Shown piece by piece: positions 8,006-64,000 of a stretch of 64,000 bases of DNA (positions are counted from its first letter, which is position 1; every line of letters begins with the position of its first letter). The position numbers and the translations under genes were made by a program. The stretch lies in assembly GCF_025698545.1 (NCBI RefSeq), contig NC_068569.1:12152001-12216000 (forward strand). Direction: 5' to 3'. The notes beneath the pieces were generated by a model. The model saw nothing but the letters and a program-made list of their open reading frames with translations, had not been told where the DNA came from and made no database searches. This DNA is from Gossypium raimondii. Its lineage: Eukaryota > Streptophyta > Magnoliopsida > Malvales > Malvaceae.

Positions 8006-8266
8006 TGATCCCGGCTGCTCTGATCACCAGAGCTAGCCGAAATATCCATATATCCTGGCCCCACAATAGCATCCATAGAAACCCGTGAACTTTCCACAAT
8101 TCTCTGCCGTTTTTTTCCTTCCAACAAAGCAATTGGGTCATCCTCCTCATTCGAGACCAATTCCATGGCCCCAGACACAAATCCATCAGTTTTCCACAAT
8201 TTGTTCCCCCCACTACGCCCCTTATTTGCCTACTACTATTGCCAACATGGCCATAACCCAAAGGAA

Positions 8267-16110: not shown

Positions 16111-16767
16111 CAATGAATTAACCAAACACTACACTCTTTGAGCTCCAACAGTAATACACAAACTAACTACAAACTTATGCGTTAAAACTACACCCCCTGG
16201 GCTGGGAATAAAGGTAGAAAAAGGGACACAGTTTTTATTAATACTTCAGTACCATTTAAGAAAACAACAAATGTAAATTATTCATAGTGACAATCCATGA
16301 GAGCAAAGCATTCAATTCCACAGGAGATATCAGCTGCTTCAGGAGATTCATCCAAATTATTCTTCAAGGGGCCTGGTGCAAATGGTCCAGAAAAGGCAGA
16401 ACCAATTGCAGGTCCAAAACTTCCAAAACTAAAAAGTGAATAGTCCGGGGTGTGGACTTGCAGTTGGTTTGGTATGATTACAGATGATGGCTCCTGGTCA
16501 TTTCGCAAATTAAGTATTCACAGCAACCAATGAACCATCTTTGGCTGAAAGAAGAAAGAAACGAGATAAATAAAGTGTTTTAAGTGCATGAAAATGGTAT
16601 CCATAAACTTAGCACACATCCAAATGATAAAATAATAATAATTATAATAATTGTATATCAAGGTAAGAACTAAGTTCTAGAAAAGGGTAGATTTAAGATT
16701 ATTCCAAAGAAGATGGCAAAGAAATAGAACCAGATAAAACATGTGCTTTCACCACAAATACATAATT

Positions 16768-16772
16768 GAGGA
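16768..16772. repeat. Solo LTR target-site duplication, left (GAGGA)
   Basis: GAGGA directly precedes TGTTGACACC and is repeated at 19360-19364. The paralogous empty site near 23093 contains the word once. Confidence 0.9.
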
Positions 16773-19359: not shown

Positions 19360-19489
19360 GAGGACAGAGAAGATGGCCAATAGATAGACAAGGTCGGTGT
19401 TCCAATTAGGGATTGGTGATGCATAAGAAACTGGAGTTTGAGGATGTTTCTGTATCAGCATAGAGCATGTGCTTTTGTCATGATCCGTA

Positions 19490-20640: not shown

Positions 20641-20860
20641 ATCATCCACTCATATATATATATGAACACATATATATAGTTACACTAACCCCTAGAAAAT
20701 GCACATTTATTTTATGACCAATCTTCATTCCCAACTTTTAGCAGTCTTATCTATCTCTTTTCAAACAAACCAAAATACAATTGACAATAACTTTGCTATT
20801 CTATACAAGGCTTTCTATGCTAGAAAAAACAAAACGAAATAGAACTATTGCAAGATATCG

Positions 20861-21600
20861 ATAATGATTTGGGTGTTCTCAACCACTACAGTTGAAAACA
20901 ATACTGGGCATGTCAAGAGTCCGAGATTATAAACAATACTTGTATATATAGAGAGAAGGTAGGAGATGAATGTTGTGAATATAGTGCTTTCAAAATGTTA
21001 AGTAGAAGCAGCATAAAAAATGCAATCTAAGAACTGGTCCAGATATGTGATACTTCAAGTAGAGAGCGTAGGGGCAACCATGCTAAAAAGAAAGAGTCAT
21101 TCCTCGGACTATAGAGTAGATTTCAACTTAGCCAGACATGTCTACAAGAGAGATCAAATAAAAAGGAATACTTTCAATAAAACAGAAAACAGAAAAGTGC
21201 AATACCGGCGGAGTTGAGGGCAATTGGCAGGTATCTTATCTTGGCCTTGAAACTTGAAACTGGAAGTTTTTTTTAAAGAAAGAAAAACATTCATGCAAGA
21301 ATATTTAATTGAAATAAATATTTCAAGCTCAACCCAGCTTCTCAACACTTCCTGCCAGTGTACTTCCCTTTTTTTTCTGTCAGTAAAAAGGCAATCTTGA
21401 AAACATTATGCTTAATTGGAGTGAGATCCGATCTATTAAAAATGCATACTTTACCCTGCTTAAAGAACGTACAGATAACGGACTGAATACATTCAACCCC
21501 CGGCGTAGAGAGTAGATTTAAGCTCGTCGAGACACCAGATAAGAAACATGATAATTTTTTTTAAGAAAGGCAAATTTTCACTATAAAAAAGGGGAAAGGG
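20861..21600. other. Spacer downstream of the GIP1-like gene
   Basis: No coding or RNA feature is recognised. Two loosely similar blocks (GTAGATTTCAACTTAGCCAGACA near 21116 and a GTAGATTTAAGCTCG block near 21511) suggest an old internal duplication. The 3' UTR of the GIP1-like gene probably begins somewhere in 21600-21856. Confidence 0.5.
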
Positions 21601-21856
21601 GAACAGGGAAACAATGAGGGAGAAAGAGAAGTGAAGGGCAACGTCCACCATCCCAAATTAGCACACTGTGTTCCTAAGTTAACATAACCAGACAATAAAT
21701 AAGTAAAATACAACCTCGTGGCACAGGGCAGTAGCCATTCAAGGTCTCTTCAGACCCCTATCAACCATACATGTAATTATTCAATCGCACGAATGCCTTC
21801 GATTGGCCACTTTCAAACTCACTACCAAGACCCTGAAAAACCCGGAGGTGATAACA

Positions 21857-24800
21857 TTAGTAATTGTTTTGCCACAACTGTTGGGTCTGCTTTGATGGCT
21901 GGCCTTGAGACCCACTCAGGGATCCATCCATAGGGTTTTGCTGCTGATGGTCCCCCAATACTCCTGTTTGTGAATGGTAGAAATTTGGGTATCCAAGAGC
22001 CCCGAAATGCTGCGAAGGTTGTTGCCCTTGTCGAAATCCACCACCCTGCTGGTTTTGCCCCTGGAAGCTGTAATAATTGCTTCCAGGAACAGCAGACATT
22101 GTTCGTGAGCCAGGGCCATGAACCCACATAGCCGAATTCTCAGTCTAACCACATAAACAAAGAAAAGGATGAGCCCACCTTAGATTCAAAGCAGCAGAAA
22201 TTAAAAGAAATAAAATATACAAATACTGTAGAAATATGTGAAATCACCCCCCAGGCCGGGAATAAAGGTAGAAAAAGGAACAGACCTTTTTAATACTTCA
22301 GCACCGTTTAATAAAAGAACAAATGCAAAATATTCACAGAGACATTCCACAGTAATGAGAGCAAACCATTCAATTCAAATTAACATTGTTTGGTACGTTG
22401 ATTACCTGTTGAAGCGACATCAAATGATTGCTGTCCTTGTACTGAGAACTCAGAATATCATCATAGCCAATGGTTGTGCCTGCAGGTGCTGTAGGCGGAT
22501 TCAGAGGAAGTCCTCCAGGAATATTGGTAGAACTCCCAAACCCATAGCCAGATGCAATTGCAGCAGATTGAGGCAAACTGCTAACAGAAACACTATTTTT
22601 GTATTGGGGGAGCACTGCTGCCAGGGACTGAGGGTAGTTACTATTACCAGCAAATCCTTGCTGGAAAGCTGATGGCACATAAGTGTAACTTTGAGGCAAG
22701 AAAGGATAACTAATCATGTTCGCGAAATGTCCCAATGGAAGCGTAGGTTGGGAAAAAGGGTGCATGGCTAGATGCTGAGGAAGAGCAGGTCCCGTGGCAA
22801 CACTGGCACTAGGAAGGGTCTGTGGAGTCGCCTGTGGTGCAGATATACTAGCTGCTCTCAGAGCCTGCAAATGTCCAAATCTATCAGGAAAGGAACAATT
22901 AAATCATATCAACTATAGAAATTTTCAGTTAGACTGAGAAAGTGGCATTTTATTTTTCCTTTTCCCCAACCCCAAACTTATTATTGTTTATGGTCACTTG
23001 GCTCTTTGCTCCTTTTTCCTGACACTGACACAAGCAAATAAAGAAAACATGCAACAAAAGTAAATACAGATCTGGTAGAACCAGATTTATAATTGAGGAC
23101 AAAGAAGATGGCCAAGAAATAGACAAGGTCTGTGTTCCATATTAGGGATCAGTGATGCACAGGAAACTAGAATTTGAGGATGTTTCTGTGTCAGCATAGA
23201 GCATGTGCTTTCACACTAAAATTCCATCTAGTCATACATATAAGCAAAATAGAGCAGGCTTGAAAACAGTAATACCAAGTTTCAGCTAAAATGACTAAAA
23301 ATAGCTTTAACATTATAGTATATAAAGTTCCATATCACTTCAGTGAACTCTTGAAAATTTTCAAACAAACCAAATTCACATGTGCAGTAGCTTTTCTCAC
23401 TATTCTATAGAAGCCTTTTTATGGTAGAAAAAGTAAAACAGAATAATAGTTGGTCACCAGTAGAAGTGCACAAAGAGCAACAAACATCAAAAAATCAACA
23501 AGGTAAAGCAAAGGGCACCTCTGGCATAGAAATTGTGGGGCCACTAATGGAAGAGACTGCATTGGTGTATTTTGTTGGCATTGACTGAGTCACAGGGAAG
23601 GGTGAATATGGAAGATCTGGCTCCCTTGCAGTCTGAACAGTTGATGTCAGCAAAGTGCTTTGCAATGAATTTGTATATGCTTGCTGCAAGGAAAACGTTA
23701 TGGTAAGAAGGGGCACTCAAGATACTAATAATGTATTCAAAGAACATAGTAGGTCAATCAATAATTTCAAACAGTAGAACAGGAAACCTAGAACAATAAG
23801 ACGCAGCTATCAACCAGAAATTTCTACATAAAAGAAACTTTAAAATCAAACTCTAAATTATATGGTTTGGATCATAAGCTAGGAATAATGAAAGTAAAGT
23901 AGTATATGTAATCATACAAGTTACATTACCATTACGCTTGAGAACGGAGTGAGATTCTGCATTTGAGTGCTTGTCTGAGGATGAGTAAAAGCAGGATTTA
24001 ACTGTTGAGAGTTCTCATAGCTATAACCAGATGCAGATGAAGGAAATGCATATTGGTTCCCTTGGGCAGCTTCAGAAGCATCCTGTTTCAGTACTGCTGG
24101 TTGAGAATCTTCAGTAGCTTCATAATTTCCAGTGTTGACAGTACTTCTAATCATTATATTTCCCTCTGCATTACTTCTGAGATGTTCGTCCCCATAATAC
24201 TCGGGATTTCTGCAAGCAAAAATGTTTAACACATATGTTCAAGGAACAAAGAGTAAAGCAAGGCAAATTAAAATCTTAAGATGCAAAAGAATACCTATTC
24301 TCGGAGTGCCCAATAGTAGAGATATCAGCTGATTCAGGAGCTTCATCCAAATTATTCTTCAAGGGCCTTGATGCAAATGATCCAGGAAAGGCAGAACCAA
24401 TTGCAGGTCCAAAACTTCCAAAACTCAAATGTGAACAGTCCGGGGTGTGGACTTGCAGGTGGTTTGGTATGATTACAGATGGATTATCCTCTTCAAATGA
24501 TGCCTCCTGGTCATCATTATGCAAATTAAGTTGCTGCATATTCACAGCAACTGATGAAGAACCATCTTCGGCTGAAAAAAAAAAGAAAGGAACAAGATAA
24601 ATAAAGTGTTTTAAGTACATGAAAATGACCTAGCAGCTATCCATAAACTAAGCACACATAAAAATTATCAAAAACTAACTGTATTACTAGGCAAGAACTA
24701 AATTCTAGAAAAGGGTGGATTTAGGATTACAATGTTTAGTGAATCACAGGTTAAAAGAGCGACTAAAGTATGATATCTTAAATTGTGAGGGTGGGGGGGT

Positions 24801-27262
24801 AGTGGGGAATTCAACAACCCTAAAACCTAAACATCGATATTGCAAGACAATCAGAAATGGGTTGACTTAGAGAATTCCAAAGCTGCAATCACTGTCTGCC
24901 TTCATCGTGTGTAATGCATTCATGTAAAGAACTAGGTGACCTTAATCACGAATCACACAAGATTGAGCGACTTAAAGCACTACACTAACCTTCATCATGC
25001 TCAAAAGCATGCCTTTGAGGCTGATAAGAATTGGCATCCTTATGTAAGTTATTATCATAAAGAGATGAGCCTCCAGAATCATCCTCTTGTATATTTCTAG
25101 TTGAAATAGAAGGAGACTCAACATGATTACCATCAACAGTTTCGACAGGACCATCATCCACTGCCTGAGCTTCCTCTAACTCGGCTTTCATGAGTTGGTT
25201 GATTCTATCCACAGGCAAGTTAGATGCCTCTGCATACAATCCAGATTCTGCAGGTGCTTCTAAGATAGGGTTCACGTTAACAGCAGATGAATTGTCAATG
25301 GGGGGCCATTCATCACTTGGGGAACTACGCTGGTTTGTGGTGATATCAGGCTCGTAAGTGACATCGGACACCTTGGAAGCATGACCATGTGGTGAACGTA
25401 AGTTGGGATGTACTTCTGCAGAATGAGGTACTGCAAGATGCCGATTATTAACACTTTGGTGAGGTGGGTTTGGTATGACAGAAGCCTTGTTTTGTGGTCT
25501 GCCCATCTTCACAATATCAGCCATTGATACTTGACCTGGAGCCCCCAACCAAGCAGACTGGTATCCACAAGGTTGTGAAGATGAAGAAATACCATCAACT
25601 AAACCTGCTGTGGTTGTTTTATGTCCGGCGATACCAGCTTCACTGCAAAACTCACATGAGAGGGAAGTAGGCAAAGCATAAAAAAACATATCACGATGGT
25701 TTACAAATTACAATTACATTGTTTGTGAACCAGACAAACAGAAACGTCATTCCAAGATAGAGATGAGAAGAATAAAACTCAGTCAACTAAATTGTCCTAA
25801 AACTTCTTTCACATGAAAAACAATTACATGTTTAGTGAAACACGCTAGGATGCCTCATGTCCACACTTACCCAGTGAGGCTCAAAGGTGTAAATAAGTTA
25901 ATGAAATTATAAATGATTTGGTATCAACCAATATCATGATTCTCAAGATTCAGTCAAATGCAGGCAAAAGCAAAATACTAATGCAGCAATACATCCCACT
26001 TAATGTCATTATAACTCAAATATAATTGCAGCTTTTCAGCTCCTTAACTGGACTAGACAATGAAGAAATATCACCATTTTCTAACATGGATTACCTATGG
26101 GATGGCGGTCTCCGATTCATGTTGTTTCCTTGCACACCAGATGCAGAAGATGAAGAACCTGCATAAGCGTGAGTTCCATTTTCCCTCTTTTGAGCAGGTT
26201 TACCATGGAAAGGTCCAGACTCTAACCATAAAAAAAAGGAGCACTAAATGGATGAGAAACCATCTAAAAGAGTCCCAAAACATTTTTTAACCAAGTAAAA
26301 GCAGACTCTTCTTCAAAATTGCATAGAGCATGTTCACAGTCATACCATTAGAACTATAATAGGATGAGCCACCACGCCCCATATATCGGTCTGAACCACT
26401 CCTACCACCACGACTCCCAAGGTTGTTGGCACCACGAGACCTGGAATCAACTGTGTCTTTGCTCTGGAGTAGACCGGTAAACAAGTCAAAAAAGAAAACA
26501 GTAAGCAATATAACCATTACAAATGATTCTAGAACCTGACATGACGAACTGCATTTATACCCTTCATTACTAAAATTATATAACGATAATGTAAAAAGGG
26601 GACATGGTAATCAAGGAAACTCAACATCCGCATAAAAGCAACTATTTGGCATAATTTCCACTAGCACACACCTCTTTTTTCTTGTCTCGTTTGCTCTTCA
26701 CCTCGTGAAAAGGATCTACACGTTTGATAAACATCTTATTAGAAACGAAATAAGAGTATCATTACAAGTGCAGAAACTTCATCAGCCCTACAGTTATGAA
26801 ACAAAGCACCGTATATTTTCGCAATCAAACGAGTGTTACGAAAGATAGGGTTTTACGCCATAGGCCTTCTCGTGACCAAACTCAAGCAGATTTTATCTTT
26901 ACCACATTAAAACACCAAAACCCAGAAACCCAAGAGTTACCCGTTTGTATAATGAAGATAAAAATCCTTTTGATTAACAAAAACCCGGGAAATAAACCCA
27001 TCAAATTGAGAACCAAAAAAAATATTTAAAAAATTAAAAGTGGAAAGAAAAAGGGCGGGGAACCTTGAGAGAGGAGGCGATTGACGGCCTCGTTAGGGTC
27101 CATGTTACACTCTTTAAGCATGGCATAGATCTCGGGTTCAGGGCAGTTCACAATCTCCTTCAAGCTCTGTACCATCTTCCGAGACCCAGCCGGAATACCT
27201 GAAATTCCACTATTACCCTTCCCTATCCCATTATTTCCAGCACCTCCTCCTTTCCCGCTCAT
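21857..27262 (-). CDS. GIP1: GBF-interacting protein 1-like (DUF1296), 10 exons, 869 aa
   Basis: Exons in transcript order: 27262-27064, 26715-26672, 26463-26346, 26221-26095, 25642-24990, 24571-24295, 24209-23930, 23683-23519, 22864-22406 and 22144-21857. Every junction is GT-AG, phases close, and the total is 2610 nt. Residues 20-81 form the DUF1296/GIP1 N-terminal domain (SLKEIVNCPEPEIYAMLKEC, then NEAVNRLLSQDPFHEVK, KRDKKKE), a UBA-like fold. The rest is low complexity, rich in Ser, Gln, Asn, Pro and Gly, and ends in a Gln/Asn-rich tail. Arabidopsis GIP1 helps G-box-binding bZIP factors bind DNA and has chaperone-like activity; family members are nuclear or cytoplasmic. The start is the first ATG of the domain exon, after a pyrimidine-rich leader. 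A decayed partial copy lies beyond its 3' end. Confidence 0.93.
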
Positions 27263-27707
27263 CCTCTCTCCGGGTACCCCTCTCCGAAAACAGTTTCTCT
27301 TAGGTCTCTCTCAGATCTGAGGAAAAAAAAAACTATGTCGTGTACGTTACGAGCTTTTTTGTCTTCGCTTCTCTCGACGAAAAAAAAAAAAGCAGCAGGC
27401 AGCAGCGAAGAGGTAAAGGAAGGGATTATATTTCTTTGAAAGTACGCTTTTATAAAAGAAAAAAAAAAAAAAAGCTCTTTTCTCTTTGTCTCCGAAAACC
27501 CTCCGGGCGTAAGCCTCGAATTTTATTATTTATTTATTAAAAACTTGCTTTCCCTTTTAAAATAAAAAACCAAACAAAAGCCCAGTTATGCCATGAAATT
27601 ATTTAATTAGATATTATATCATAATTGTTGGAATATATATTTATATTATACCTGTAATTTAAAAAATAAAAATAAAGCAAAAGAGAAAGTTTCTTCTATT
27701 CGACTCC
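27263..27707 (-). promoter_or_regulatory. Upstream region of the GIP1-like gene
   Basis: About 450 bp separate the start codon from the next structure, a candidate DNA transposon starting at 27711. The 27270-27480 stretch holds several A-runs and GAGA/CTCT words as in a 5' UTR and core promoter, but no TATA box can be assigned with confidence. If the transposon call is right, the upstream promoter lies inside or next to it. Confidence 0.4.
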
Positions 27708-27929
27708 TTACAACATGTTTGGTTGGGGAATAGGAATGCATTCCCCACCAATTCGATAGTCCTACCACCAAACCAACGTTTGGTTGGCTGTAAAAGGATT
27801 ACAACCTGATTCCATTCAGGCCTTATTACAGCTAAAGGCTGTAATAGCCATTCATTGCCCACATACCTGAATAGCTATTCCGTTCGGCTCTCTTTTTTCC
27901 ATTTTCCAAATTTTGCCCTCCTTCATCTT

Positions 27930-28885
27930 CTCCTTCATCTGCCGTCAAACTCTCTACACAATTTCTGCCCTTAAACTCTCTTGCCATATTTCAGATATTC
28001 TCCTTCATCTTCTCCCATAGATCTGTAACTTTCTCTCCTTCTGTTCCCATATTTTAGATAATGGCGTTTTTTCTTATTTGATTTTTCCTTCTTTTAACGT
28101 TTCTCCTCTGTACTTTTTGATCATGTTCTTCTTCTTTTTTTAATTGATTGTTTGCTTAATGAGCATTTCTATTCCCTCTCCTCTCCGCCGAATGCTGATT
28201 CGTTGTTTAAGAAAATCAATTTTACCCCCTTTATTTCTCGCCTAAAAAATGCTCAGACTCAGTCTCACCGACAGCCACTCCCTTCCTTCCTTCAACTCCG
28301 GTAGAGGGAAAACTAGGCAGGTAGCCAAGCAAGCATATGAATATTTGAGTGAAGTTGCGTTTTCCTTCCCACAATCAACGTTTCCATCTCCTCCTTCGCA
28401 ATCTCTTCTCCTTCATCTGCCGTCAAACTCTCTACACAATTTTTGCCCTTAAACTCTCTTGCCATATTTTCGATATTCTCCTTCATCTTCTCCCATAGAT
28501 CTGTAACTTTCTCTCATTCTGTTCCCATATTTCAGGTAATGGCGTTTTTTCTTATTTGAATTTTCCTTCTTTTAACGTTTCTCCTCTATACTTTTTGACC
28601 ATGTTCTTCTTCTTTTTTTAATTAATTGTTTGCTTAATGAGCATTTCTATTCTCTCTCCTCTCCGTCGAATGCTAATTCGTTGTTTAAGAAAATCAATTT
28701 TACCCCCCTTTATTTCTCGCCTAAAAAATGCTCAGACTCAGCCTCATCGACAGCCACTCCCTTCCTTCCTTCAACTCCGGTAGAGGGAAAACCAGGCAGG
28801 TAGCCAAGCAAGCATATGAATATTTGAGTGATGTTGCGTTTTCCTTCCCACAATCAACGTTTCCATCTCCTCCTTCGCAATCTCT
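27930..28885 (+). repeat. Tandem duplication, two units of about 478 bp
   Basis: Unit 1 (about 27930-28407) and unit 2 (about 28408-28885) share almost all their sequence. This includes CTGCCGTCAAACTCTC, TAATGGCGTTTTTTCTT and an open stretch with GKTRQVAKQAYEYLS. Only scattered substitutions and one extra base separate them. The open stretch is not recognised as a known protein. The duplication lies wholly inside the candidate transposon. Confidence 0.85.
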
Positions 28886-30317
28886 CCTCTTTTGCCTCCC
28901 AAACTACCATTTTCGTGACCTCCAAACAATTCCTCAAAAACCATCCCAAAAATCATTCTTTCTTCCCTCTAAACGCTTTCTTCCCTCTTTTTCTTCCAAA
29001 CCCATCCCCAAAAACCATTCTTTCTCATTCAAGACTAATGAGTTTTCTTCTCTTCCTTCTCTCAGTGTTTCTTCTCCCTCTTCAAGAATTTTTTATTTTT
29101 TGCAAATACAATAAAAAGGTTGTTGCTTGATTGTTTATTCAGTTCTTTCTCTATTTATGCTAATTTTGTTATATAAGGAGTTTTTTTCTATTTTCTGGTA
29201 TTATCTGGTTGACTCTGTCATTGATTTTAGTATTTGGTTGGTTATCTTATTTTATAATGTTTGATTTTGGAATTTTAATCAACTTTTGTTACCACTCGAT
29301 GAGGAGGATAATAAAAATATATCTGTTTGAAAATGTATCATTGTTTTGCATTGAATTCAAGATGATCTCTTTTTGTGCAAATGTGAAAAGAATATATTTG
29401 ATGATGATTTGATGAGACTAGACTAGGTTGAGTCATTGTTGAATGAATGCGTTAATTGAGTATGGTGATTATAACTATTTGAGAGCTAATATTGTATGTA
29501 ATCAATGTGATGATTGTGAACCTTAAACAGTTAATAGATGATTATGATCTGTGTTGATGGATGCTCTATGATTGATCGAAGAATGGTAAGCTATCTGTCT
29601 ATTCTTAATGTTTCTTTATTTTGTACGTGTATGTGTGCATTCATGTTCATATGCGTAATGTTCCTTACCAATCTTATGGGTGAGACGTGCAGTGCATGTG
29701 AGGAAATAAAGGTAGCAAAAGATTATGAAAATTGAATTTTTGATATAATACATATTATTCATGGAAAAAAATAATGTAGCAGATAGTTCTTTTATTGTTA
29801 TAGTTGAGTGGTGGAGAGAGAGTGGAGTAGCATAACCAATAGATATCTGGTTCCTTGGTTTTAATTTAATAGCATGCTGCTTCTACCCAACATGTTGATG
29901 CGGTTTACTGCAATGATCCAACTGCAGTTAATTATTTGTTTGTTTAGGCCAATCTACTATTGGTTTTGTACCATTATCATATTGATATATGTGGTGGAGA
30001 AAATGTCATTGCTTACCAATGATATATTTTATCAAATGCTGTTTTGGCCTTGAGTGACAGTATGGTAATAATATTATCCTGTCTAATTAAAGCAGTTACT
30101 TAAGATTTGCATTTCAACTTGAGGTATTATTCAAGTAAGGTAAATGAAAAGGCCATACTTTGTTAACATTTCTTTTTTGACTCATATACCATGGTAGTCT
30201 CAAGTTCAACTCTGTTATAATTAATAATAACAAGAAGCATGTACAAATATGAATTCTCTCCTTTAAATGGATTCTGAATTCTTCAAACTCATGGTAATTT
30301 TGACATGGTTATGCCAG
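28886..30317. other. Interior of the candidate transposon, no gene recognised
   Basis: AT-rich sequence with short open frames (up to 128 codons overlapping the tandem repeat) that show no family motif. The part just before 30318 ends in TTATGCCAG, an acceptor-like site, and may be intron 1 of the captured ribosomal protein gene. Confidence 0.5.
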
Positions 30318-34320: not shown

Positions 34321-35131
34321 AGCTTATGTAGGCTTTTTTTTTATTGATCTAGTAACAAAATTAACTCTCAAATGTTTACATTATATCAATTTGATCCTAA
34401 ATATAAAAATTCAACAAAATTAGCCTTCAATGTTTACAAAGTTTGCCATTTTAATTCTAATTCTAAAAAAATTCAATGATTTTGGCTCTCAACATTTACA
34501 AAATCTATCAATTTAGTCTTAACTCTAAATTTTTAAAATATGTTTTAAAAAAATCATTTTAGCTCTTTATAACCTATTGACTAACCAATGTGAGATATTA
34601 TAAATAAGAAAAATAGTACTCTCTTTCAAATCACTTGCAAATGAGCTCTAAAAAGTTGGGATAAGACACACACACACACAAAATAAGATCCGAAAGAAAA
34701 TACATGTATTAAAAATGTTATTTGTTTTGGCACTAATGCAACCAATTATTTCATATAGGTTTCGAATCAATTGATTTGGTTCAAGTCAAGTTTAAATTAT
34801 AGTAAAAAAATTGTTGCAAGTGATTTGAAAAATGATACTCTTTTTATATTGTAATATTTCACATAAGTTAGTCGATGGGTAATGAATGGCTAAAATGTTT
34901 TTGTTTTTGAATATTTTTAACTTTTAGAGTTAGGACTAAATTGATAAATTTTGTAAAATTTGAGGTTAAATTTATTAATTTTTTAGAATTAGAACTAAAA
35001 GGACAAATTTTATAAACATTAAGGGCTAAATTTATTATATTTAGGATCAAATTAATAGATTGTATAAACATTAGAGAGCTAATATTGTTACTAGACCAAT
35101 AAAAACCCTATACAAACTTAAAGTGTACTAA
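34321..35131. repeat. Large foldback element, arms of about 310-320 bp
   Basis: The left arm 34321-34640 and right arm 34812-35131 are reverse complements along their length: ...TTTCAAATCACTTGCAA pairs with TTGCAAGTGATTTGAAA, and TTATTGATCTAGTAAC pairs with GTTACTAGACCAATAA. The 171-bp loop contains a short CA repeat. Pairing seems to extend outward: left sequence 34262-34320 matches the far side of the adjoining LTR insertion (37458 onward, ACTAAAATATTTAG). The LTR therefore landed in the right arm. Transcribed, this would form a hairpin of roughly 300 bp. Confidence 0.8.
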
Positions 35132-45352: not shown

Positions 45353-47128
45353 ATTGTTGAAGATGCCCCTCTGCCCTAGGAATTTATGCTTTTTCAGTAA
45401 TGGAAACTGTCTCGTACTTTAAGCTAGTCCATGATAATAGATTTTTACTTCCTTTCTAAATTTTACTTATTCATTTTCTCAAATAAAATCCTTGACGTTC
45501 TCACTTCATTTCAACATCAATATGTCAATGCCATGCTATTTCACCGCTACAATGGGCAAGTGTAGTTACGGATGTACTTTTTCTTTTAATTTTTTTTAGT
45601 ACTTTGGTGTATCATATTTTTACATTCTCATATATATATATATATATATTCATACTTTTACATTGAAATGTCTTAGCAAAAAATTTATAGGAAACTAAAC
45701 TTCTATTCTTTTTCAACTACAAAATTTAAATATGAATTTTCTTTTAAGATAAAATCCAGCTGGTTTCCATTAAGAGACAGAAGAATGTTTCAAATAAAAA
45801 AAAACAACCCTTAGAATAAGTAGCTACAAATGGTCACATTTTCCAAGCAAAAACCAAATAACAACTCGTAATCGTAAAACAAAAGATCAAAAGGCAAGAG
45901 CCTATAAGTTTCCCTCTCCCACATCGTAAATAGCAGAGCACAAAACTAGTTTATTTTTGAGTTGATTTCCCAAAACTTTCAAAATCAAGCTTGAAACCAT
46001 GAAACAAAGTGGGGGAAACAAACCTGGAGTGAAATAGTGAGGCAAAATCCGTGAGTCCTTCTTAATCTTTTTGAAAATGTCATTTCCTATTAATATTTTG
46101 AAACTTTCTTATCAGGGTCAATTGACCTCACAACAAAATAAGAAATAAATATTACTTATAATTTTTTTAAATTTCCTTTTATATAATTGATGTATTAATT
46201 CAAAAAAATGATCCTAAAATAATTGATCCCAACAAAATATTAAGGTTTGAAATTATTGATTCTGTATAAGATTCTTAACATTGTGAGTGGATAATAACTT
46301 TTAGAGTATGATTTATACAAATCCTTAAAGAGATTAGGATTGATTAATACAAACTCTTGAAAAATTAGGATTAATTAAAATTTAACATTTTATTTAGAAA
46401 TTCTTGTTGCTAGTGTGATTATTGTGAATCTTGTTTTTGGAAAATTGATATATTATACTCTCATGACACCAAAAAGTACTTAAGTGACATTTTATGAAGA
46501 TGTTGGCTCTTGAAAACTTCTATGTGTTTAATGCTTAGATATATTTGGTCTAAATGTTTAACATGAATGATAAGAAAAATACTATGCATTAGTTTATATG
46601 ACTTTTATAATCGTTTTAATTTTAAAAAATTGATCCTACAATCCAAATTTTTGGCTTCACCTTGCTTCTTATGATTTTGCAAATTAAATATTTTGTTTGG
46701 AGTTGAAATGTAAATGAAAAAATAAATTTCATGTAATTTTTAATCTTTTCTGGTAACTCTGTTACAAATTGACATTATTTGATTATTTTCTATTGTATAG
46801 GGATTAAATTGATGCATTTAATGATATAAGGACTAATTTGATCTAATCCTTATATTAAAGGGACTAAACGGTTACTTTCACTCATTATCTTGTTTCGTCA
46901 CGATAAATTGCGACCAAATTATATTCCTTTTTAATTCATCAACCCATGATTTCAACCAGGCCCATATTATATTTTGGGCCTACTTTCTTACAAGTACCCA
47001 ATTAAATGCAATAATCTGGTCGGACATTCACATAATAAAATCGTCGAAGGATGATGGGAATCGCCATTGCGCCAATTTGATGCAGAAGGAAGGAAGGCGG
47101 CAGAGTTGTATTTTGATTGGTAGCGAAC
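45353..47128. other. Spacer between the X8-domain gene and PRP39
   Basis: Holds an (AT)n tract near 45631-45650 and anonymous AT-rich sequence. No gene, RNA or transposon end is recognised. The PRP39 promoter must lie in its right part; no TATA box stands out in the last 150 bp, as is common for housekeeping genes. Confidence 0.6.
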
Positions 47129-47847
47129 ATGGAGGTACACATTTCAGGAACAGAAACAGAAACAGAGTGGCATCCTAAGAAAGGAAATTATTTAGGTAAA
47201 CACTTGCTTAAAAAAGTTATTATTATTAATTCTGAACTTTTTGTTTTTTTCCCCTTTGAAATTGTTTGTTCTCGTTCGTGTTTTTGTTCTCCTTTTGTGT
47301 GTGTGTTTTCTAGGCTAACCAGTATCTACTCTTTTTTTTTTTCTGTAGAAGGTTTTGATGAGCAGAAACTCAAAGAAATTATTGCTGAAGGTGAATTAGA
47401 TTTTGATGGGTGGACTAAGCTTATATCGGAGGTCGAGAATTTCTTTCATGTAAGTTTATTTAATTAATTTTCTATTCCTTTGGGTTTGTTTATAATGCTG
47501 ATAAACGGGTTTCTCATGTTTATAATGTTTCATGTTGATCATTTGCAGGATGAAATAGAGAATATATGTTTAGTCTATGACTCCTTCTTGTCCGAGTTTC
47601 CTTTGTGCTATGGTTACTGGAGGAGGTATGCTGATCACATGATGCGCTTATGCACCACTGACAAAGCTGTTGATGTCTTTGAACGAGCTGTGCAATCGGC
47701 AACATACTCTATTGATGTTTGGGTTGACTATTGCGGCTTTTCTGTTTCAGTTTTTGAAGATGATAATGATATTCGACGGTAATCTCAATGCTTGAAATTG
47801 TAGTATGAGTTAAACAACAAAATGTAACCATTTTTTACATAATATTA

Positions 47848-47878
<31 letters not shown>

Positions 47879-50431
47879 ATGTATGTATATATGTATGTAT
47901 CCAACTCCAGATCACCTAAACACAAAACAGAACCCAAATAATCATGCAGAACCCAATAGCATCATCCTCTCAAATGCATAAACAACAATGCTCCTACAGC
48001 ACCAATGTTTCAAATACTCTTAAGACTACATAAAAACTGCATCCTGTTACAGCGAGTTCATCTCTTCCTATGTTCGTACAGTTGATTATGTACGCAAAAG
48101 TTAGCAGGTCACTAACTTCACGAAGTTGGTTTGTTGAAATGATCCTGATATTGGTTTAGGGATAAGGTTGTACAATTGTCTTTCATTTGGATATCTGGAT
48201 TATTACGGATCAATTTGTTTTCAGAAATACAATTCAACTCAACTTGACCAACCTTGAATCGAACTAGCTGGTTTGGCCTTAAAGCACATTTCTTTTCCCT
48301 TTCATTATCTGTGCCTCAACCCAATGAGAAGCTTTACTTATGCTGCATGTATTATGCCCCTGCTCTCTTGTGTTCCCTAGGGTCCTTAATATTCTTGCTT
48401 TATGATATGTCTATGATATATGTTATCTTTCTGGAAATTATTGACAGGCTATTTAAAAGAGCCATGTCCTATGTTGGAAAGGATTACTTATGTCATACCT
48501 TGTGGGATAAGTATGTTGAGTTTGAGTTTTCTCGGGAGCAATGGAGTTCCTTAGCTAATGTTTATATCCAAACCCTAAGATTTCCATCCAAAAAGCTACA
48601 TCATTATTATGAAAGGTATTTTCACTTCTTTATAGAATCTTGAGAGGAGTCTTTAATCCTTCTTTTGTAGTAGTTTATTTGCCTGTTATGTTAGTATTAA
48701 TATTGTTTGCTATGATTTATAAGAATTCTTGTTTCATGTACTGGAAAAGATTAAAAGAACACTTCAGACAAAATGGACTTTCGAAGGCCAGTTGAATTTA
48801 TTGGTATTATTCTTGAATATTGCATCATTGTACAACCTCCACTCCAACTAGTTTACTGAGAAAGTATTTTGGACCGTAAAAGAGTATTTATTTTTGACTT
48901 GCTATGGATCTAACCTTTACATCCAAGAATATGCTGCATCTACCTCATTATATGATCTGCTGCTTGGTGATCATGGTGCATTTACTAAAAGCCCTGATAA
49001 CTTCATGGTACTCTACATACATATATTTATGAGATTCTTCATCTGATTGGTTATTAATGTGGTGGTATTACGCTTCAGCACTTTGATTTGGGTAGCTGTT
49101 AATGTATTAGCTTAGTTTGATATTATCTAGCATCTTTGGTTTTGATGTTTTTATTGTTCCCTTGCATGGTATTTTACCTTTTCTTCTCTGTTTGTTTGCC
49201 TCTTACCATTTGATGCAATGATTTGGTTATGGTAGAACTGTTTGCATTTGTCTTCAGTTTCCAGAAGTTGGTTGCCACTTGGAAAGAGGAGATGCAATGT
49301 CCGAATCATATGGATTTACTGTCAGATCCCAGAGTAGAAAACGAAGTCTCTTCATGTCATACTGATGCAGAAATTTCTTGTATCATCAAAGAGTTGCTGG
49401 ATGCTTCTACTGGCATGGATGGAACTGAAGCACTGGCAAAATACTTGTCCATTGGGAAGCAATTTTACCGGGAGGCTTCTGAGTTGGATGAAAAAATACA
49501 TCACTTTGAGGCTGGCATTCGAAGGCGTTATTTTCATGTGAAGGAACTTGACATCAGTCAATTGGATAACTGGCATGAATATTTAAACTTCGTAGAGATG
49601 CATGGTGACTTTGATTGGGTATGGTATATAAATGTGGTGCTTTTCTTTATATAGTATAACTGCTATCTGAGTCTCATTTTGCATTGTAGGCTGTTAAACT
49701 TTATGAGAGATGCCTAATTCCATGTGCTAATTATCCTGAGTTTTGGATGCGTTATGTGGATTTCATGGAAAGTAAGGGTGGAAGAGAGATAGCAAACTTT
49801 GCACTTGCCAGAGCAGCAGAAGTTTTTCTAAAGGTACTTATCCTTGTATTGTGCTTATACTTTTTCAAAGAAGCCATATGATAGTTTAAATGGATACTAC
49901 CAATTCAGAACACCCTATCTTCTAAATTTGCGATTTGTATCATGTAATTTATCACAATTTGATGTAGGTGTATGGTTGTTTCGAGTTAACTTTTATGTTG
50001 TGTTGGAATATTGAAGAATACTTATTTTCCATCAGAAATAAGAAATTGGGGTCTCAATGTTCCTGCGTTATCCTTTAGGCAACTTGAGTGAAACAGCAAG
50101 TGATTAGCTTACTTATTTTACATTCTACTTTTCCAAAACTCTGTTGGTAATTCCAAAGCAGTTTCTGCCATACTGAAACTTCAATTTATTGCTTCTATTT
50201 ATAGGATGCTTTCTCCATTGCTTTATATGTGACTGGAGATGTTTATGGCCCTCCTCATATGTCCGTTGCAGAGAATGCCAGTGATACACCTTTTCACTGC
50301 TAGGTTTAAGGAGAAAATAAGGGATGTTTCAGGTGCACACATAGCACTTCTTCATTATGAGAAAGAATCAGATCTTAGTTTTGTTGAAACTGTTTCAATA
50401 AAAGCTAACATGGAAAAGCGTTTGGTAAGTG

Positions 50432-50466
<35 letters not shown>

Positions 50467-53400
50467 TTAGACTATATGAATGGGCTTGATTGGGAGTAAT
50501 TACTGATACATGTTGTGCTTTCCCAAATTTGTTAGGGTAACTTTGTAGCAGCTTCTAATACATACAAAGAAGCAATGGAAATTGCTGCTGTGAAGCAAAA
50601 GTTTGACATTCTTCCCATATTGTATATTAATTTTTCACGGCTTCAATACATGGTGGGTAAGGGTTTTAATTCTTAGATTCAACCTAAACTGTCTATGTTT
50701 AAATATATATATACACACACACTCACAGCATTTTGTTTTTAGATTACCAGTAACAGTGATGCTGCCAGAGACATCTTAATAGATGGTATCAAATGTCTGC
50801 CTCATTGCAAATTGCTTTTGGAGGTAGTTATGTTATCTTCAATTTAATATTTGTCTGTTGTGGAATCATGAATAGAACATTTGTGTAGCCTTCAGGTTAT
50901 GTAATATTTATGGAAATTTTGCATGTGTTGCATGAAATTAGAAATCTATTCTCCCTCCCAATTTCCCTACTCCTCCTGTGAATTGTTGTTAAATATTACC
51001 ATTTTATTGGAGTTGGACTGTTATTAGATGATAGAAGTTTTGATCATTCTGGTACTTACGTAGGAACTGATAAAATTTGGAATGATGCATGGAGGGCCTA
51101 GGGACATACATGTTTTAGATGCTATAATAAACGATGTGGTATCTCTACGGCCATCTCAAGGTATGGATGCAAAAGAAGCAGAGGAGATATCAAGCTTATA
51201 TTTACAGGTAAATTAAAAAAAAAAAAAATCCATAGCAGTTTTGAAGTGTGTAAGAGGATGTTATTTCTCCGCATGTTATCTGCTTTTGTGCCCTTTATTG
51301 ATTGTTGACCTCATTTAATCTGTTTTGCCTTTGACTATGGCAAAAAGTGATTAAAAAACTTTTCTGGCCCTTCTTGTTGCTTTCTCTGTATCTTCTGTAT
51401 ATGTGCTCACACAGGAATTTTCTTTGTGAAAAGTAACAAGTCAGTGGACTTGGATTGGGATCTTTGTTTTGATTGGTGTTTGCATATCTTTACATTTTTC
51501 AATGTCATTCTTTTTGCAAATAGAACTAGTTACTGGCTCTCGAAGACCCAGTTTTAACATGCCAGTTGCTGTAGTATCGCCACTGTTTCTTTGTCTCTTG
51601 CCTAGCATTAGGTTTTTTTTCTTGCATCATGTAAATTTATCTGGCAGTTGTAAGATGTCCTGTGAAGCCAAGTTAAAGATAGTGGGAAAAAGGAAAGTAT
51701 TGTTGTTTCTAAATTATTTGAAGCTGATTGTTTAAAATATTTTTATACTGGCCAGTTTGTTGATCTTTGTGGAACCATAGATGATATAAGAAAAGCATGG
51801 AATCGCCACATAAAATGTTTTCCTGAGTCTGCAAGGGGGAGCACATATAAGTTTTCTGTTATCAATGGTATAAAATCTTTACCCTTGAAGATAACTGCTT
51901 GTAGAAGACAAGGGAGTCCTGATCCTTTGCCTTCACATCCATCTGGGGATAGAAGCTTAGACATCCCAGTGCAGTCACCATCACGAGACAATATATTGAA
52001 ACCTTTGGAAAATGATGATGCCCAGCCTAACCATGCTGCTTTGGACTGTGTACCAGACACGATATCACCATTTCTGGAAGATCATGAAATTCCCCTTTAC
52101 CAGGCTACAGTCAACAAGCTTCAATCAGGAGAAGTTGATGAAAGTTTGCAGGGGGGGAGGCAGCACAGCTCTGAGGAGGTTTCAAACAAGCTTCAATCAG
52201 GAGAGGATATAAACACTACTACCAATATGTCATCTCATAATTTAATACAGGATGAAATGAGAAATGGAGTTGAAGCATTAGAAACTTCAGAAGAAAATTC
52301 TAAGGAAAATAAATTCAGGCAAGAGCTTGAACATAAGCCTGAACATGATGTAAATGAACTTCCATTGGAGAGACTTTCATTGGGTCAACTAGATCGTGAG
52401 TCTTTGGATTCAATCAGTTTTGCAAATCAGGAGGGTGAAACTTTTGTAGAAACCAGCTTACCAAATGAAAGCATGGTGGAAAAAGAACCTCCTCAGGAAA
52501 CCAGCAAGCTCAATGGAATTATGCCGGAGGTTGCTCAAAGTAATGATGGATATAACCTGGAATCTAGTCCAAGGAGTGCTCAAGCATCTGATTCTGCTGG
52601 AATTCAAACTGAAATGAGCAGTCCTTCCTCTCTGGCAAGTCAGCAGAACATCAAGAAAACAGAGCCACTTGTGCGGAGGACTCCTCCAGATGATGTTGGA
52701 AGTTGGCATCAAAGGAGTAATGCTGATAGAGTTCACCGAGAAAATAAATTTGGCCATCGAAGGCACTCTCATAAAAGACAGCATCAAAGGCAACAAATGT
52801 CTCCAAAAAGGCAGCATTCGCGAAGTGAAACTGGCACACAAGTGCCTATGAGTCAAGGTTACCCCAGTCAGTCCATGTATTTGCAGAGCCCACAAGTTCA
52901 ACAAGGTGGCCAATCACAGAGTCAATACTCCACATCTGCTGCTCATCCTAATTTAGCTGCTGTTCATAACTGGTCTATGCAGGATGTGCACCAACAGAAT
53001 TTTGCCCCTTCTCAGACTCCACCTGCTCCTGTACCTGGTTATCCTCAAACGCAGATCTCTCAAAATCCCATGCAAAGCAATGAGCAGCTTGGGCAAATGC
53101 AGACTAATCAAGCATATAATCACATGTGGCAATATTATTACTACCAACAGCAACAGCAGCAGTTTCTTTTGCAGCAGCAGCAACAGCCTCTGCCTCAGCA
53201 GCAGCTTGTACAGCAACAGTATCAGCAACACCCACAGCTGCTACAAGTGCAACAGCAATATCTTCAACAGCAACAATTACCCTATCAGCAGCCACAGCTG
53301 CTGCAGCAACAACAATTTATTCAACAGCAACAGTATCTGCAGCAGCAGCAACAACTACAACCGCAAGGCTCATATCAGCAGCAGTTTCCACCACCAAATC

Positions 53401-54343
53401 CCCATCCTTACCGGCAGCAGCAGCAAGAACAAGAAAAAAGACAGCAAGAAGGACAGATTACAGCATCTCAGGTTCAGACACAGAGTGAATTGAGCAAAGA
53501 GGTATGCTTAAATATTGAAACTTTTGGGTTTGTAGTAAAAAGGGAGATAAAAAATTCAAGTGCATATTTGCTGCTGCTATTTTTTTTGAAAAAAAGAAGA
53601 GTAAATATAAATTTGGATAGATGAACCATTCTTGCAGGAGAAAAATACGAGACCCTGAAGCTCATTTTTGAAAAAATTCATGGTTTTTCCAATTCTAAAG
53701 TTCCTATGGAATCTATTTAGGAACACTTGGGTAGACAGTTGGGGTTACTTCGGATATAAGTCTTCTTATTTGAGCAAGCTTGACATTTCTTTAACCTGAA
53801 AATGATCATAATAATTACATCTGTAGCAGTGCCGTCCGCTCTTAAAATGAGAAAGATCTTAGTCATGGGAGGCAGATATAAATTAGAAGTTTTGTACTTA
53901 TGTGTAAGTTGTTATCCTGATGGCAATTTAACATTTCTTGCAGGAATCCATGATGGAACCAAGGCGACAGACAACATTGCAGGTTAGTGAAAGCTCTATT
54001 CTCTTTCAAGGAGAGTTTTATGTGGTGAATAAGGTTAGAGTTTTAGCTAAGATTGGACACTCTAAAGCTGGTGAATAATGATAATTCCTCCTTTATTTGC
54101 CTAAAATTTATTTTTACCTTTCACCTGCTATTTCGTCGACCTTTCTTATGAATTATCATTCCCGTTTCATCGGTGGTCCAGAACAAATTGACATTCAAAT
54201 ATGGGCATGTTAATCGATTTTGGGAATCAGTCTTATACATTGATTTCTTCCGTGTATTGCAGGTCCAAGATCCATTGCCTTGCAGGAATGATGCATCTGA
54301 AACTGTATTATCTACAATATCTCCCAATTCCCAGCAGGGATAA
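47129..54343 (+). CDS. PRP39: Pre-mRNA-processing factor 39-like (U1 snRNP, HAT repeats), 13 exons, 1143 aa
   Basis: Exons: 47129-47195, 47349-47449, 47549-47778, 48448-48615, 49258-49618, 49690-49833, 50272-50424, 50536-50652, 50743-50823, 51064-51207, 51756-53501, 53944-53982 and 54263-54343. All are GT-AG, total 3432 nt. Residues about 30-560 are HAT (half-a-TPR) repeats: [85 protein letters not shown]39 is a U1 snRNP-associated scaffold for 5' splice-site recognition. Exon 11 alone encodes 582 residues: an acidic/Ser-rich part, then a Gln-rich block at about 985-1080. The short plant form (about 770 aa) lacks this tail, so this is the long PRP39-2 type. The upstream ATG-free leader favours the start at 47129. 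Confidence 0.93.
47828..48130 (-). repeat. Copy of the Mei2-like 3' flank/UTR inside PRP39 intron 3
   Basis: From CCATTTTTTACATAATATTAT to CACGAAGTTGGT this matches 60167-60423 nearly base for base, for example CCAACTCCAGATCACCTAAA, ACTGCATCCTGTTA and GAGTTCATCTCTTCCTATGT. The copy stops before the Mei2-like stop codon. A CTGT/GTAT tetranucleotide run (47848-47900) replaces a short TA run in the partner. It occupies almost half of the 669-bp intron. Confidence 0.9.
47848..47900. repeat. Tetranucleotide microsatellite (CTGT)n(GTAT)n
   Basis: About eight CTGT units run into GTAT units inside the duplicated segment of PRP39 intron 3. The partner at 60188 has a plain TA run, so the tract expanded in this copy. 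Confidence 0.9.
53140..53430 (+). repeat. CAG/CAA-rich tract encoding the PRP39 glutamine-rich region
   Basis: Interrupted CAG, CAA and CAACAG repeats in frame in exon 11 encode runs of up to about seven Gln, broken by Leu, Tyr and Pro. The other frames of the same tract give long Ala-rich, Ser/Asn-rich and Leu-rich open readings that are artefacts of the repeat. Confidence 0.9.
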
Positions 54344-59043: not shown

Positions 59044-59556
59044 TTTTTTTTGGCTTAATCACAAATTTAGTCACTAATACTTACATATTTTGTCAAAATG
59101 ACCCTAATTGTACTTTTGAATCTTTTTACCATCAACCTTTGTTTTTTTTCAATATACTTTTTTAACAGATCGAATGAAATGGGGATGATATAGAATATCA
59201 TATGTGAAATATTTTAATGAGATAAAATTTATTATTTAGATAACCCAATAAGATAATTACATATAAAAAATAAAATAAATAAATAATACATTAAATTAAA
59301 AAATAACTCCTAATTTAAAGAAAATAAACATAATTATCTAAAAAATTAACTCAATAGAAAAACTTCTCAATAAACAAATGTATGAAAGAAAAGAAAGACT
59401 GAAACTTTAAAATTTACTCATTAAATTTATTAGAAAAACATATTGAAAAAAGAGCAAAGGTTGATGGCAAAAAAACTCAAAAATACAATTAAGACAATTT
59501 TGACAAAATATGCAAACATTAGTAACCAAATTTATCATTAAGCCTTTTTTTTATAT
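59044..59556. repeat. MITE-like element, about 115-bp terminal inverted repeats
   Basis: The left end GGCTTAATCACAAATTTAGT (59052 onward) is mirrored by the right end ...ACCAAATTTATCATTAAGCC (to 59544). The match continues through TATTTTGTCAAAATGACC, CAATTGTA-like and ACCATCAACCTTTG words to about 59166/59434. The interior is AT-rich and non-coding. T-runs flank both ends, so the target duplication cannot be read with certainty. Confidence 0.8.
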
Positions 59557-59920: not shown

Positions 59921-60166
59921 ATTTATTTAATATATATATATTTCTAGTAAAAAGATTAAATGTCAAAAAGAGTTTTAACGTATGAGATGTAGAACATACT
60001 TTCAACGAGGATGCACTGCACAGTCTAATTTTGTCATTTACATCCATTTCATAGAAAACTAAGATATGTGACTAACAAATGTCTTTTTGCACTATACAAT
60101 TTCCTATAAATGGCACCATGTTACATCTTAACCCTCAAAAACCTCAACTCTTGATAGCAAATATAT

Positions 60167-60449
60167 CCATTTTTTACATAATATTATATATATATATATC
60201 CAACTCCAGATCACCTAAACACAAAAAAGAACCCAAATAATCACGCAGAACCCAATAGCATCTTCTCAAATGCATAAACAACCATGCTCCTACAGCATTT
60301 GACCAAAGTCCAAATGCTCTAAGACTACACAAAAACTGCATCCTGTTATAGTGAGTTCATCTCTTCCTATGTTTGTACAGTTGAGTATGTACGAAAAGTT
60401 GTCACTAGCTTCACGAAATTGGTACAAGGGCAATCTCCTTAATAAGCCG
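60167..60449 (-). other. Mei2-like gene 3' UTR and flank (duplicated segment)
   Basis: This follows the stop codon (60450-60452) on the transcript strand. The part 60167-60423 recurs at 47828-48130 in PRP39 intron 3. No AATAAA is obvious on the minus strand, so how far the transcript extends is inferred. Confidence 0.6.
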
Positions 60450-63400
60450 TTAAGAAGTTTCTGGCTCCACATCAGCATCTTTGTCTTTAGCGCCACCTGA
60501 AGAATTACCCGAATTCAACCCATTTGGCTGTCGGATAATATTCAAACTGGAGTGCAATTGCTCTGTGATGCCCTACCAAAAACTCCATTATCGTTATTAT
60601 TATGCATCATGTATATAACCAGCCTTAGTCTTGAATGGAAAAAGATAGCATCTGCTAGTTGAGCAGATTAAAAAATGGTGTCACTTGGTGGAAGTACTAC
60701 GAATAAAATGCATGCCAAAGAAATTTCAACGTATGGGTTATAATACAGCTGAAAGAACAACAAATATTAATGCTACCTGATCACCATTATCTGGGCCTTC
60801 TGAGTGAAAGAGAATTGGGCGACAGCGTTTATCTTCATTCATCAAGCTTGAATTCTGGAAATGGGCAACAAGAGCCACCTTTCCCTGGATTCGAGCATAT
60901 GCCAAAGAAGCAACTTTCTCACTATTAAACTTCTCCCATTTCTTTCCATTAAATGCCTGCATAAGGTTGCTAAAATAAATTAATCCAAAGAAAACATTCT
61001 GAGTCTTCAGTAAGAAGCTCGCCGTTCTCTTCAATTGTAAGCACAAATTTTCTAATTGAGAGAATACATTAAATCCAAACAGTCCTAAGCACACCCATCA
61101 TATAAGCTAAAAAAATAACCTCATAAAATGGAATAATGTGTGAAGGAGAGAGCATATTGATGAAGGCATAGCCCACATTGCACTTATTCTGCACCGCAAA
61201 TGGGAATATTTATCAGTTGCAATTGATTTTTTTTTCCTACAATTAATAAAGACAGCCTAAACTGCCTATCACAACATCAAAGTATTACCTTAAAATCAAT
61301 GGGCAAATAGAGAAAATCATAAGTTCCTTGGTGATTTTCATCAATGGCTGCCAGCAACATCTTTGAGGTATATCTGAGGATCATTATGGAATAGAAATTT
61401 TCAAGTTACCACATCAGTATTTCAAACATATAAATGGCCATTTAATATTCATGAACCAGAAGAGTAAAGAGGATGAACTGACTTATTTGGAATGTTTTTT
61501 ATCATTAGGGTTGTCCGAATATCTTCGCCACTAACAATTTTGTCCAAGTCCAGCTGAAACTTCTTTTTGTTATCAAGCTGGTTATTATTTTCAACTTGTC
61601 TGCTCCGTCCATTCTCAGCCAACCCCTCCATACTATTATGTAGTCCTTGGAATGGGCCATTGCCCAAAAATACAGGACTTAACCTAGGTGAAGACATCAT
61701 TCTCATACTTGAACTATTCTCAGACACACTCCATGGAATGCTAATACCTGAACTAGTAGCAGCACGGGAACCCCGATTAACCATAAAACCTCCATTATTC
61801 TGGCCTACACCTAGGCCTCCAAAGGCAGCAGGGTTCGTGAGTGAAGTATCTGATGATTTGGGGAAGAAACCAAAGTGTCTTCCAAGAGGAACACCAGATG
61901 GAGCAGACCCAATGTGATGATGACCATAGTGGGGGGATGAGCCTGAGAAAGACACTTGCTGACCTGAGTATGGAAAGCCATGTCCCTTTCCATTGGATGA
62001 AAACGGATGTCCCATAGATGACTTTGGCCAGACTGATGGGTTGGTTTGATCTGTATATGAATTTGAATTTCCCCAAAGGAACTGTGACCCAGATAATGTT
62101 TCCATACTGGAACCATTTGAAGGACCAAAAGTAGTTATTGTTCCATTATATTGGCTCAACTTTGGCTCTGGCAATGAATGGGAAAGTTGGAATCCAGTTT
62201 CATGGGTTGAATTTGTACTGGTAAATGAATAATCTACATGACCACCCCTCCCTAGGTCTCTGCCAATAGGTGCAACTTTTATGGAATTTGACCCTTGAGG
62301 GAGCAGAATAGAAGCCAGACCAGGTAAATGGTTACTGGGTGCCGGGCTCATGGTCCTGAAAACAGGGGACTTACTAAGAGAATGCATAGGGCTATGTTCC
62401 ATAGGACTGTTAAACTGTGCCCAGCTACCTGTCAGGAATATTGCAACATCCTCAGTCAAAACACAATCAAACTGTATGTCCGTAGGACTGTAAAATAGCC
62501 TTACCTGGAGGAGAATTAGCCATTGGGGAATCAACTTGATGTCTAAAACCCCGAGACTCTTCTTGTTCAAGCTCTTGACTTAGGTGCAGCATCAAGCTAG
62601 AAGTTCAAAAAGATAATAAAAATTTATCATTGCCATACTTCCAAAAACAACAAAGAAAGGAATCAAACAAGCAAATTTGAATAGAGAGTGTGTTGATCAA
62701 GCATGATGCAGCTAAGATTAAGGATCCAGGTAACCACAGTCCTGCAAGGCCATAACTAAAGTAGTTCCCATTGTTTTGGTTCCCTTTGATGGCCTAAATT
62801 TATAATCTAAGTAGTTTACCTCATCCAATTACAACCAATGCATACATGTAAAAATTTAACACTGTAGCAAAATTGCACACATGCAGAAACTGATTTGCTC
62901 TCTTGCCCAAGTGCCAGAAGAATAAATAGAAGCCACTATCAGGTTACACTCAGACAAATGCACACTCCAATGCTCTCATAGTGCCAACATAATGACAACG
63001 AACTTATTTCAAATGGAAAACATGATTATCAAATAAATAAATATTAAAATTTTTATAAATTAGTATTAATAGAAGAATAAAGCCTAAGATATACCCACCT
63101 GCGACGAGCTCCTCCAGGGCGACTAGGTTCAAGCTTAATTCGTTTACCAGCTATGTCACTTCTATTAAGTGACTTAAGAGCTTGTTCTGCAGCTCTAACA
63201 TCATAAAACTCAATGAACTTATGGTGTCTTTTGTGTGGCGTTTCCCTTATCTGCTTTTACACAATGAATAAAGCATTACAGAAAGGTTAAACATGCAGCC
63301 TCAGGTTAGAAGCAAGGAAAATATTTTGAATAAGGAAAAAGCATCACCTCTTTAACCTCGCCATAAACCCCAAATATTTGAAGAAGATCTTCATTTGAAA

Positions 63401-63720
63401 CTGATGGGTCCAAATTAAAAACTACCAAAGTTCCTTGATTAATATCCTTCTCTGATGGATTATCCTGGTGAGGTTAGGAGAAAAAAGTAAAATGGAGAGG
63501 CGGTTATTAACGAAAACAATTTGATAAAACAAATTATTGGGATTAAAAAAATGCTCTAGACCTTAGGAATTGAAAAGTGAATGTCAAGTTTTCTCCGTCT
63601 TAATGGCTTGTTCTGTAATGCACGCATAGCTGTTCGAGCAGCACGAATGTCATAATAGGATATCATCACAAAGCCTCGGTGTTTACATGCAGTGTACAGA
63701 GTTCTAATATCACCATATTG
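60450..63720 (-). CDS. AML: Mei2-like RNA-binding protein, C-terminal 640 residues (gene continues beyond the window)
   Basis: Exons in transcript order: 63720-63562, 63464-63348, 63250-63099, 62596-62505, 62428-61483, 61373-61289, 61188-61120, 60956-60777 and 60572-60450 (stop). All are GT-AG, 1923 nt visible. The first exons give part of RRM1 (ACKHRGFVMISYYDIRAA, RRRKLDIHFSIP) and RRM2 (GTLVVFNLDPSVSNEDLL, HHKFIEFYDVRAAEQAL). A family-typical linker (LEQEESRGFRH, NSPPGSWAQF) leads into a long Ser/Gly/Asn-rich exon. The Mei2-specific C-terminal RRM3 follows ([72 protein letters not shown]). Plant Mei2-like proteins act in meiosis and meristem development. The N-terminus lies past 63720; exon-intron phase is closed throughout. 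Confidence 0.95.
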
Positions 63721-64000
63721 CTGCAAAAAGGGGGAAATATTATAGCACTCAGATTAGAAAGATAGGAAGTAACTTGAATTAGTTCTCAAACCCTCATAGG
63801 AGTTAAGAAACAACAGGTTTGGATCAACAACAGCAGTCCAACAATTCAAACTCACACTTCAGAATTTAAAGGGACGTGTTTAACTCTAAAATACATGCAA
63901 TACTTTTAGCTCAAAAACTGGAAGGTATTACATAGTCAATTGCAGCATCTAAAACCTACATTTTTGGTTCTAAAGGCAATGTATTCTTTCTAGCAATGCA
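63721..64000 (-). other. Intron of the Mei2-like gene running to the window edge
   Basis: The acceptor TTTTTGCAG (63729-63721) precedes the first visible exon. The remaining 270 bp hold no further exon, so the donor lies outside the window. Confidence 0.75.

Follow-up and report, generated by a model that had tools for sequence, protein, structure and literature searches.

Why should an intron of one plant gene contain a few hundred bases complementary to the 3' untranslated region (UTR) of another gene, and does this complementarity have any consequence? The question is raised by a stretch of Gossypium raimondii DNA of 64,000 nucleotides (the window), which covers positions 12152001-12216000 of contig 5 in a genome of 751 Mb and 281 contigs.

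Two homologous segments in PRP39 and a Mei2-like gene

PRP39 was modelled on the plus strand at 47129-54343, from ATG to stop, with 13 coding exons, GT/AG borders and an open frame. Its first 609 residues, which were the part searched, matched PF23240 (HAT_PRP39_N, 8.5e-59), PF23241 (HAT_PRP39_C, 3.5e-47) and PDB entry 6g70 (Pre-mRNA-processing factor 39, 8.5e-49), which agrees with the initial annotation of a plus-strand PRP39 gene carrying the segment of interest in intron 3. This is the third coding intron (47779-48447, 669 nt), and the PF23240 match spans the exon junction at which it lies. A genome-wide search with a 407-residue query rendered the window copy of PRP39 and, on contig 7, two weaker relatives with identities of 39-63% in the individual pieces. 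The second gene lies on the minus strand, as annotated, and matches PF04059 (RRM_2, 7.4e-55) and PF00076 (RRM_1, 2.8e-19), as fits its Mei2-like assignment; its 3' part was modelled at 60450-63720 as nine exons with the stop codon at 60450-60452, and the gene continues towards the window edge. PRP39 and the Mei2-like gene are convergent, with stop codons ca. 6.1 kb apart, so that an ordinary PRP39 transcript is not expected at the Mei2-like gene and any pairing between the two RNAs would take place in trans.

The segment in PRP39 intron 3 (47828-48130) and a piece downstream of the Mei2-like stop codon, at a distance of 27 to 283 nt from it (60167-60423), proved to be homologous and in the same plus orientation, both by blastn and by alignment. 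Given the strands of the two genes, PRP39 pre-mRNA is complementary to the Mei2-like 3' region 12 kb away, as had been proposed. Within the window, blastn of the intron copy against the UTR copy gave an E value of ca. 2e-82 with a 250-column core at 87% identity, and the left end of the pair holds an additional exact match of 21 nt. The two segments had been described as near-identical, which is right as to their homology but generous as to degree: the global alignment of 308 columns consists of 236 identities, 16 mismatches (12 of them transitions, all 16 falling within 252 ungapped columns) and 56 gap columns. The largest gap, and with it the majority of these columns, is due to a TGTC/TATG microsatellite at 47846-47900 on the plus strand of the intron copy; in the UTR copy, TA repeats occupy this place. 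Chance similarity was rejected on the basis of the E value and of a shuffle control, in which the observed match scored 295 bits and the best of 50 mononucleotide shuffles of the UTR segment against the window scored 36.5 bits. The remaining within-window matches of both segments are of at most 41 nt, with E of 3e-4 or worse, many of them TA-rich.

With the low-complexity filter on, the pair ranks third by score among 11 within-window similarities with E of 1e-6 or better. The window is also populated by other repeats and remnants. Four pieces of the gene region at 22-25 kb (22245-24729), which contains minus-strand ORFs and which we take to be GIP1-like, are found again upstream at 16191-20841, in rearranged order and 78-90% identical. 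A tandem duplication of 489 bases, 96% identical, occupies 27926-28413 and 28404-28892, and inverted repeats are present at 34338-35105 (arms of ca. 300 nt, 78% alike) and, between PRP39 and the Mei2-like gene, at 59052-59544 (arms of ca. 127 nt, 81% alike), the latter a possible fold-back element. Just upstream of PRP39, 46675-46865 gave two repeat-like matches to contig 10 (stretch L016, 7240-7599), which lie next to each other on opposite strands at 76-77%, like fold-back arms. Minus-strand ORF remnants at 4174-9174 presumably derive from a LINE-type retrotransposon, to judge by their translations. Neither Rfam elements at the gathering threshold nor tRNA genes were detected in the window, and exact pattern scans against the collections of genome contigs and of viral contigs rendered no hits in either, as expected for plant DNA.

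A third copy on contig 10

Searches of the 751 Mb genome with each of the two copies scored the same three places: the intron, the UTR and contig 10 at 3019118-3019306. All three candidates were scored, in a search that passes over simple repeats and very common words. A high-copy repeat, the finding that the initial annotation had set against its own proposal, is rejected by this count. On contig 10 the match follows immediately upon the stop codon of another Mei2-like gene, in a block that is collinear, in inverted orientation, with the window Mei2-like gene and that contains a counterpart of the gene at 21568-27270. Window regions 21568-27270 and 60271-64000 thereby correspond to contig 10 at 3014500-3058300 (stretches L004, L017 and L018) at ca. 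75-89% nucleotide identity, and the block can be classed as ohnologous or segmentally duplicated. No match to PRP39 was found in five stretches of contig 10 from 3014500 to 3058300 (43.8 kb), either with its first 600 residues (tblastn, E 1) or with its exons (blastn). The presence of the same sequence in the same place in the contig-10 Mei2-like gene, within a collinear block, indicates that the 3' UTR is the older home of the piece and predates the split of the two genes; judged from the three aligned copies, the one in PRP39 intron 3 is the derived and younger one.

Homology between the two Mei2-like genes is not limited to the piece. From the stop codon to the piece 22 of 29 positions are identical, and past its other end 42 of 63 and 55 of 70, with homology reaching ca. 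60031. The further downstream region that the window gene has in common with the contig-10 gene (60031-60166, minus strand; 76.7% over 129 columns by blastn at 60031-60151) is not found in the PRP39 intron. The piece is thus enclosed by a longer stretch common to both genes, and there is no obvious reason to take its far end for that of a transcript. As a candidate signal for the transcript end, the minus strand between 60450 and 59900 contains a single AATAAA, at 59927, and the coverage of 60167-60423 by the Mei2-like transcript is a predicted one.

In the core of a three-way MAFFT alignment, identities amount to 199/220 between UTR and intron, 161/218 between UTR and contig 10, and 167/228 between intron and contig 10. 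The intron and UTR copies being closer to each other than either is to contig 10, the copying took place later than the split of the two Mei2-like genes. Substitutions after copying were assigned to the intron side in 8 cases and to the UTR side in 10, with 3 unassigned, a split that is rough because the three-way core has 21 mismatches as against 16 in the pairwise alignment, several of them beside gaps (columns 30, 31 and 127-131), and conceals a one-base insertion of the intron copy. Another polarity count (28 intron, 15 UTR, 7 unassigned) was discarded, since the microsatellite was misaligned in it. At three places the intron copy and contig 10 are alike in length and the window UTR is not. 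For fourfold sites, the two Mei2-like genes are at a distance of 0.22, with differences at 44 of 229 sites; this was computed from 599 codon pairs in well-aligned blocks, after all others had been dropped. The intron-UTR distance is 0.067, which at 2e-9 to 7e-9 substitutions per site per year would roughly correspond to an age of 5 to 17 million years for the copy.

The predicted fold of the UTR segment beats those of 197 of 200 shuffles (z -2.74), which might reflect a constrained structure. The intron copy folded in the UTR sense gave z -0.74, and its plus strand folded no better than shuffles (z 0.84). The core hairpin of the UTR fold includes a stretch of 4-5 nt that the other two copies lack, and a functional UTR hairpin was weakened as a candidate because its stem requires that stretch. 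The stem concerned, AGCATTTG/CAAATGCT at 60290-60330, looks as if a quasi-palindrome had been completed after the copying.

Origin and function of the intron copy

In all likelihood, the intron copy goes back to one copying, at the DNA level, of an internal piece of the Mei2-like UTR, probably as repair filler, and is now a passive, neutrally decaying passenger. A break in PRP39 intron 3, ca. 12 kb from the Mei2-like 3' UTR, would have been repaired by synthesis-dependent strand annealing or a like process with the UTR piece as template for filler DNA, and the copy would since have been spliced out with the intron and have decayed neutrally. We infer in this way both a break-repair mechanism and a lack of function. 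An internal piece with abrupt ends and without transposon marks is what break-repair filler would leave, and the segment has these features. At the intron site, the best direct repeat that could represent a target-site duplication is of 5 nt, a length attained by 59.7% of 2000 random sites; visual inspection of the ends of the piece showed no terminal repeats; and outside it the similarity of intron and UTR is at shuffle level (the share of shuffles that attained it was 0.10 to 0.76 in unanchored comparisons, and 0.15 and 1.0 in anchored ones). No added poly(A) is found at the end of the intron copy, only a run of A6 that is common to both copies, located in mRNA sense at the 60167 end of the piece, and the match between them extends 3 nt beyond this run. 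These absences (no terminal repeats, no added poly(A), no target-site duplication beyond the chance level), together with the homology of the Mei2-like genes past both ends, point to a local insertion templated by DNA rather than to retroposition or a transposon. The initial annotation had kept a local transposition in reserve, and in substance this was right, a local duplication of UTR sequence being the better reading.

Retroposition would require that reverse transcription of the Mei2-like mRNA gave a 5'-truncated product, which was inserted in PRP39 intron 3. It is an unlikely origin, although the piece lies inside one exon and close to the 3' end of the gene, and the window contains an ORF remnant (5930-6880) that we take, from its translation, to be reverse-transcriptase-like. 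As a poly(A) tract there is nothing beyond the A6 run of both copies, which the match outruns, and a target-site duplication above chance is lacking. Moreover, homology to contig 10 continues for ca. 135 nt beyond the supposed 3' end, which is therefore probably not a transcript end. There is a small chance that the A6 run at 60167 is the start of a short or decayed poly(A).

The break-repair reading assigns no function to the copy. The initial annotation had raised a possible trans-antisense pair. In a regulatory version of it, unspliced PRP39 RNA or the excised intron would pair with Mei2-like 3' UTR RNA in the nucleus, giving rise to siRNAs or altering 3' end formation or stability of the Mei2-like mRNA. 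We regard this as very unlikely, and complementarity is all that speaks for it. The predicted intron/UTR duplex is strong (-357.6 kcal/mol), but such a value would be obtained for any copies this alike. There are three exact runs of at least 21 nt (30, 21 and the 21 at the left end), and the two segments exactly share 12 distinct 21-mers and 7 distinct 24-mers. With a core of ca. 250 columns, the pairing is longer than the 100 nt given as a criterion for Arabidopsis trans-natural antisense transcripts (trans-NATs) in PMC1794575, provided that intronic sequence is taken as part of the transcript; complementarity of mature transcripts is not found in the gene model, where the mature PRP39 mRNA is without the piece. 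The two sides have diverged to about the same extent (8 vs 10), and the window UTR differs in length from the other copies at the three places mentioned above. G-U wobble is retained at 6 of the 16 mismatches, which is half of the 12 transitions, so that there is no excess of pairing-conserving changes. Nothing in the similar rates of both copies suggests that pairing was maintained. An antisense duplex in the nucleus would be possible but unsupported.

Two further readings can be set aside. That both copies represent a small non-autonomous transposable element, as their defined borders and length of a few hundred bases might suggest, is barely credible for a sequence that scored at three places in 751 Mb and holds the same position in the ohnologous gene at one of them, that has no terminal inverted repeats by eye and no target-site duplication above chance, and whose two borders are crossed by homology to the contig-10 gene. 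A birth of the piece in PRP39 intron 3 followed by copying into the Mei2-like 3' UTR would fit the agreement in length of intron copy and contig 10 at the three indels, but its probability is just as slight, since the ohnologous Mei2-like 3' UTR has the piece with homologous sequence on both sides (contig 10 being one case of a Mei2-like UTR outside the pair that contains it) and the UTR-specific indels fit changes after copying.

Relation to known systems

Filler-DNA copying of gene fragments has been described in plants (PMC7935947, PMC4423477). Our case resembles plant filler DNA made by non-homologous end joining (NHEJ) with synthesis-dependent strand annealing in that a short internal piece of a gene was inserted in an intron, seemingly in a single event and without transposon marks. 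It differs in that the piece is untranslated; the survey of PMC7935947, as its method is presented, located pseudogenes by protein alignment and would be expected to miss such a piece. With plant trans-NATs, as characterised in PMC1794575, the locus has in common that the complementarity between two separate genes extends over more than 100 nt, whereas here the complementary part is intronic on one side and the pair is a predicted one. The antisense small RNAs from rice pseudogenes treated in PMC2708354 offer a further parallel, since a derived fragment might likewise yield RNA antisense to its parent.

A search of one library with both names jointly found no literature pairing Mei2-like genes with PRP39. 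In our view, the fact that both genes act on RNA is a coincidence. The alternative would be that PRP39 intron 3 serves as a nuclear trans-antisense RNA on the Mei2-like transcript, coupling the splicing of what is presumably a U1-associated factor to the dosage of what we take to be an RNA-binding regulator, by way of a UTR piece acquired recently. Such a coupling is highly improbable; were it true, a single small repair event would have created a regulatory link. For the present, the locus illustrates clearly how the copying of an untranslated gene fragment into a neighbouring intron, in a direction that the third copy settles, can produce a potential antisense pair by accident.
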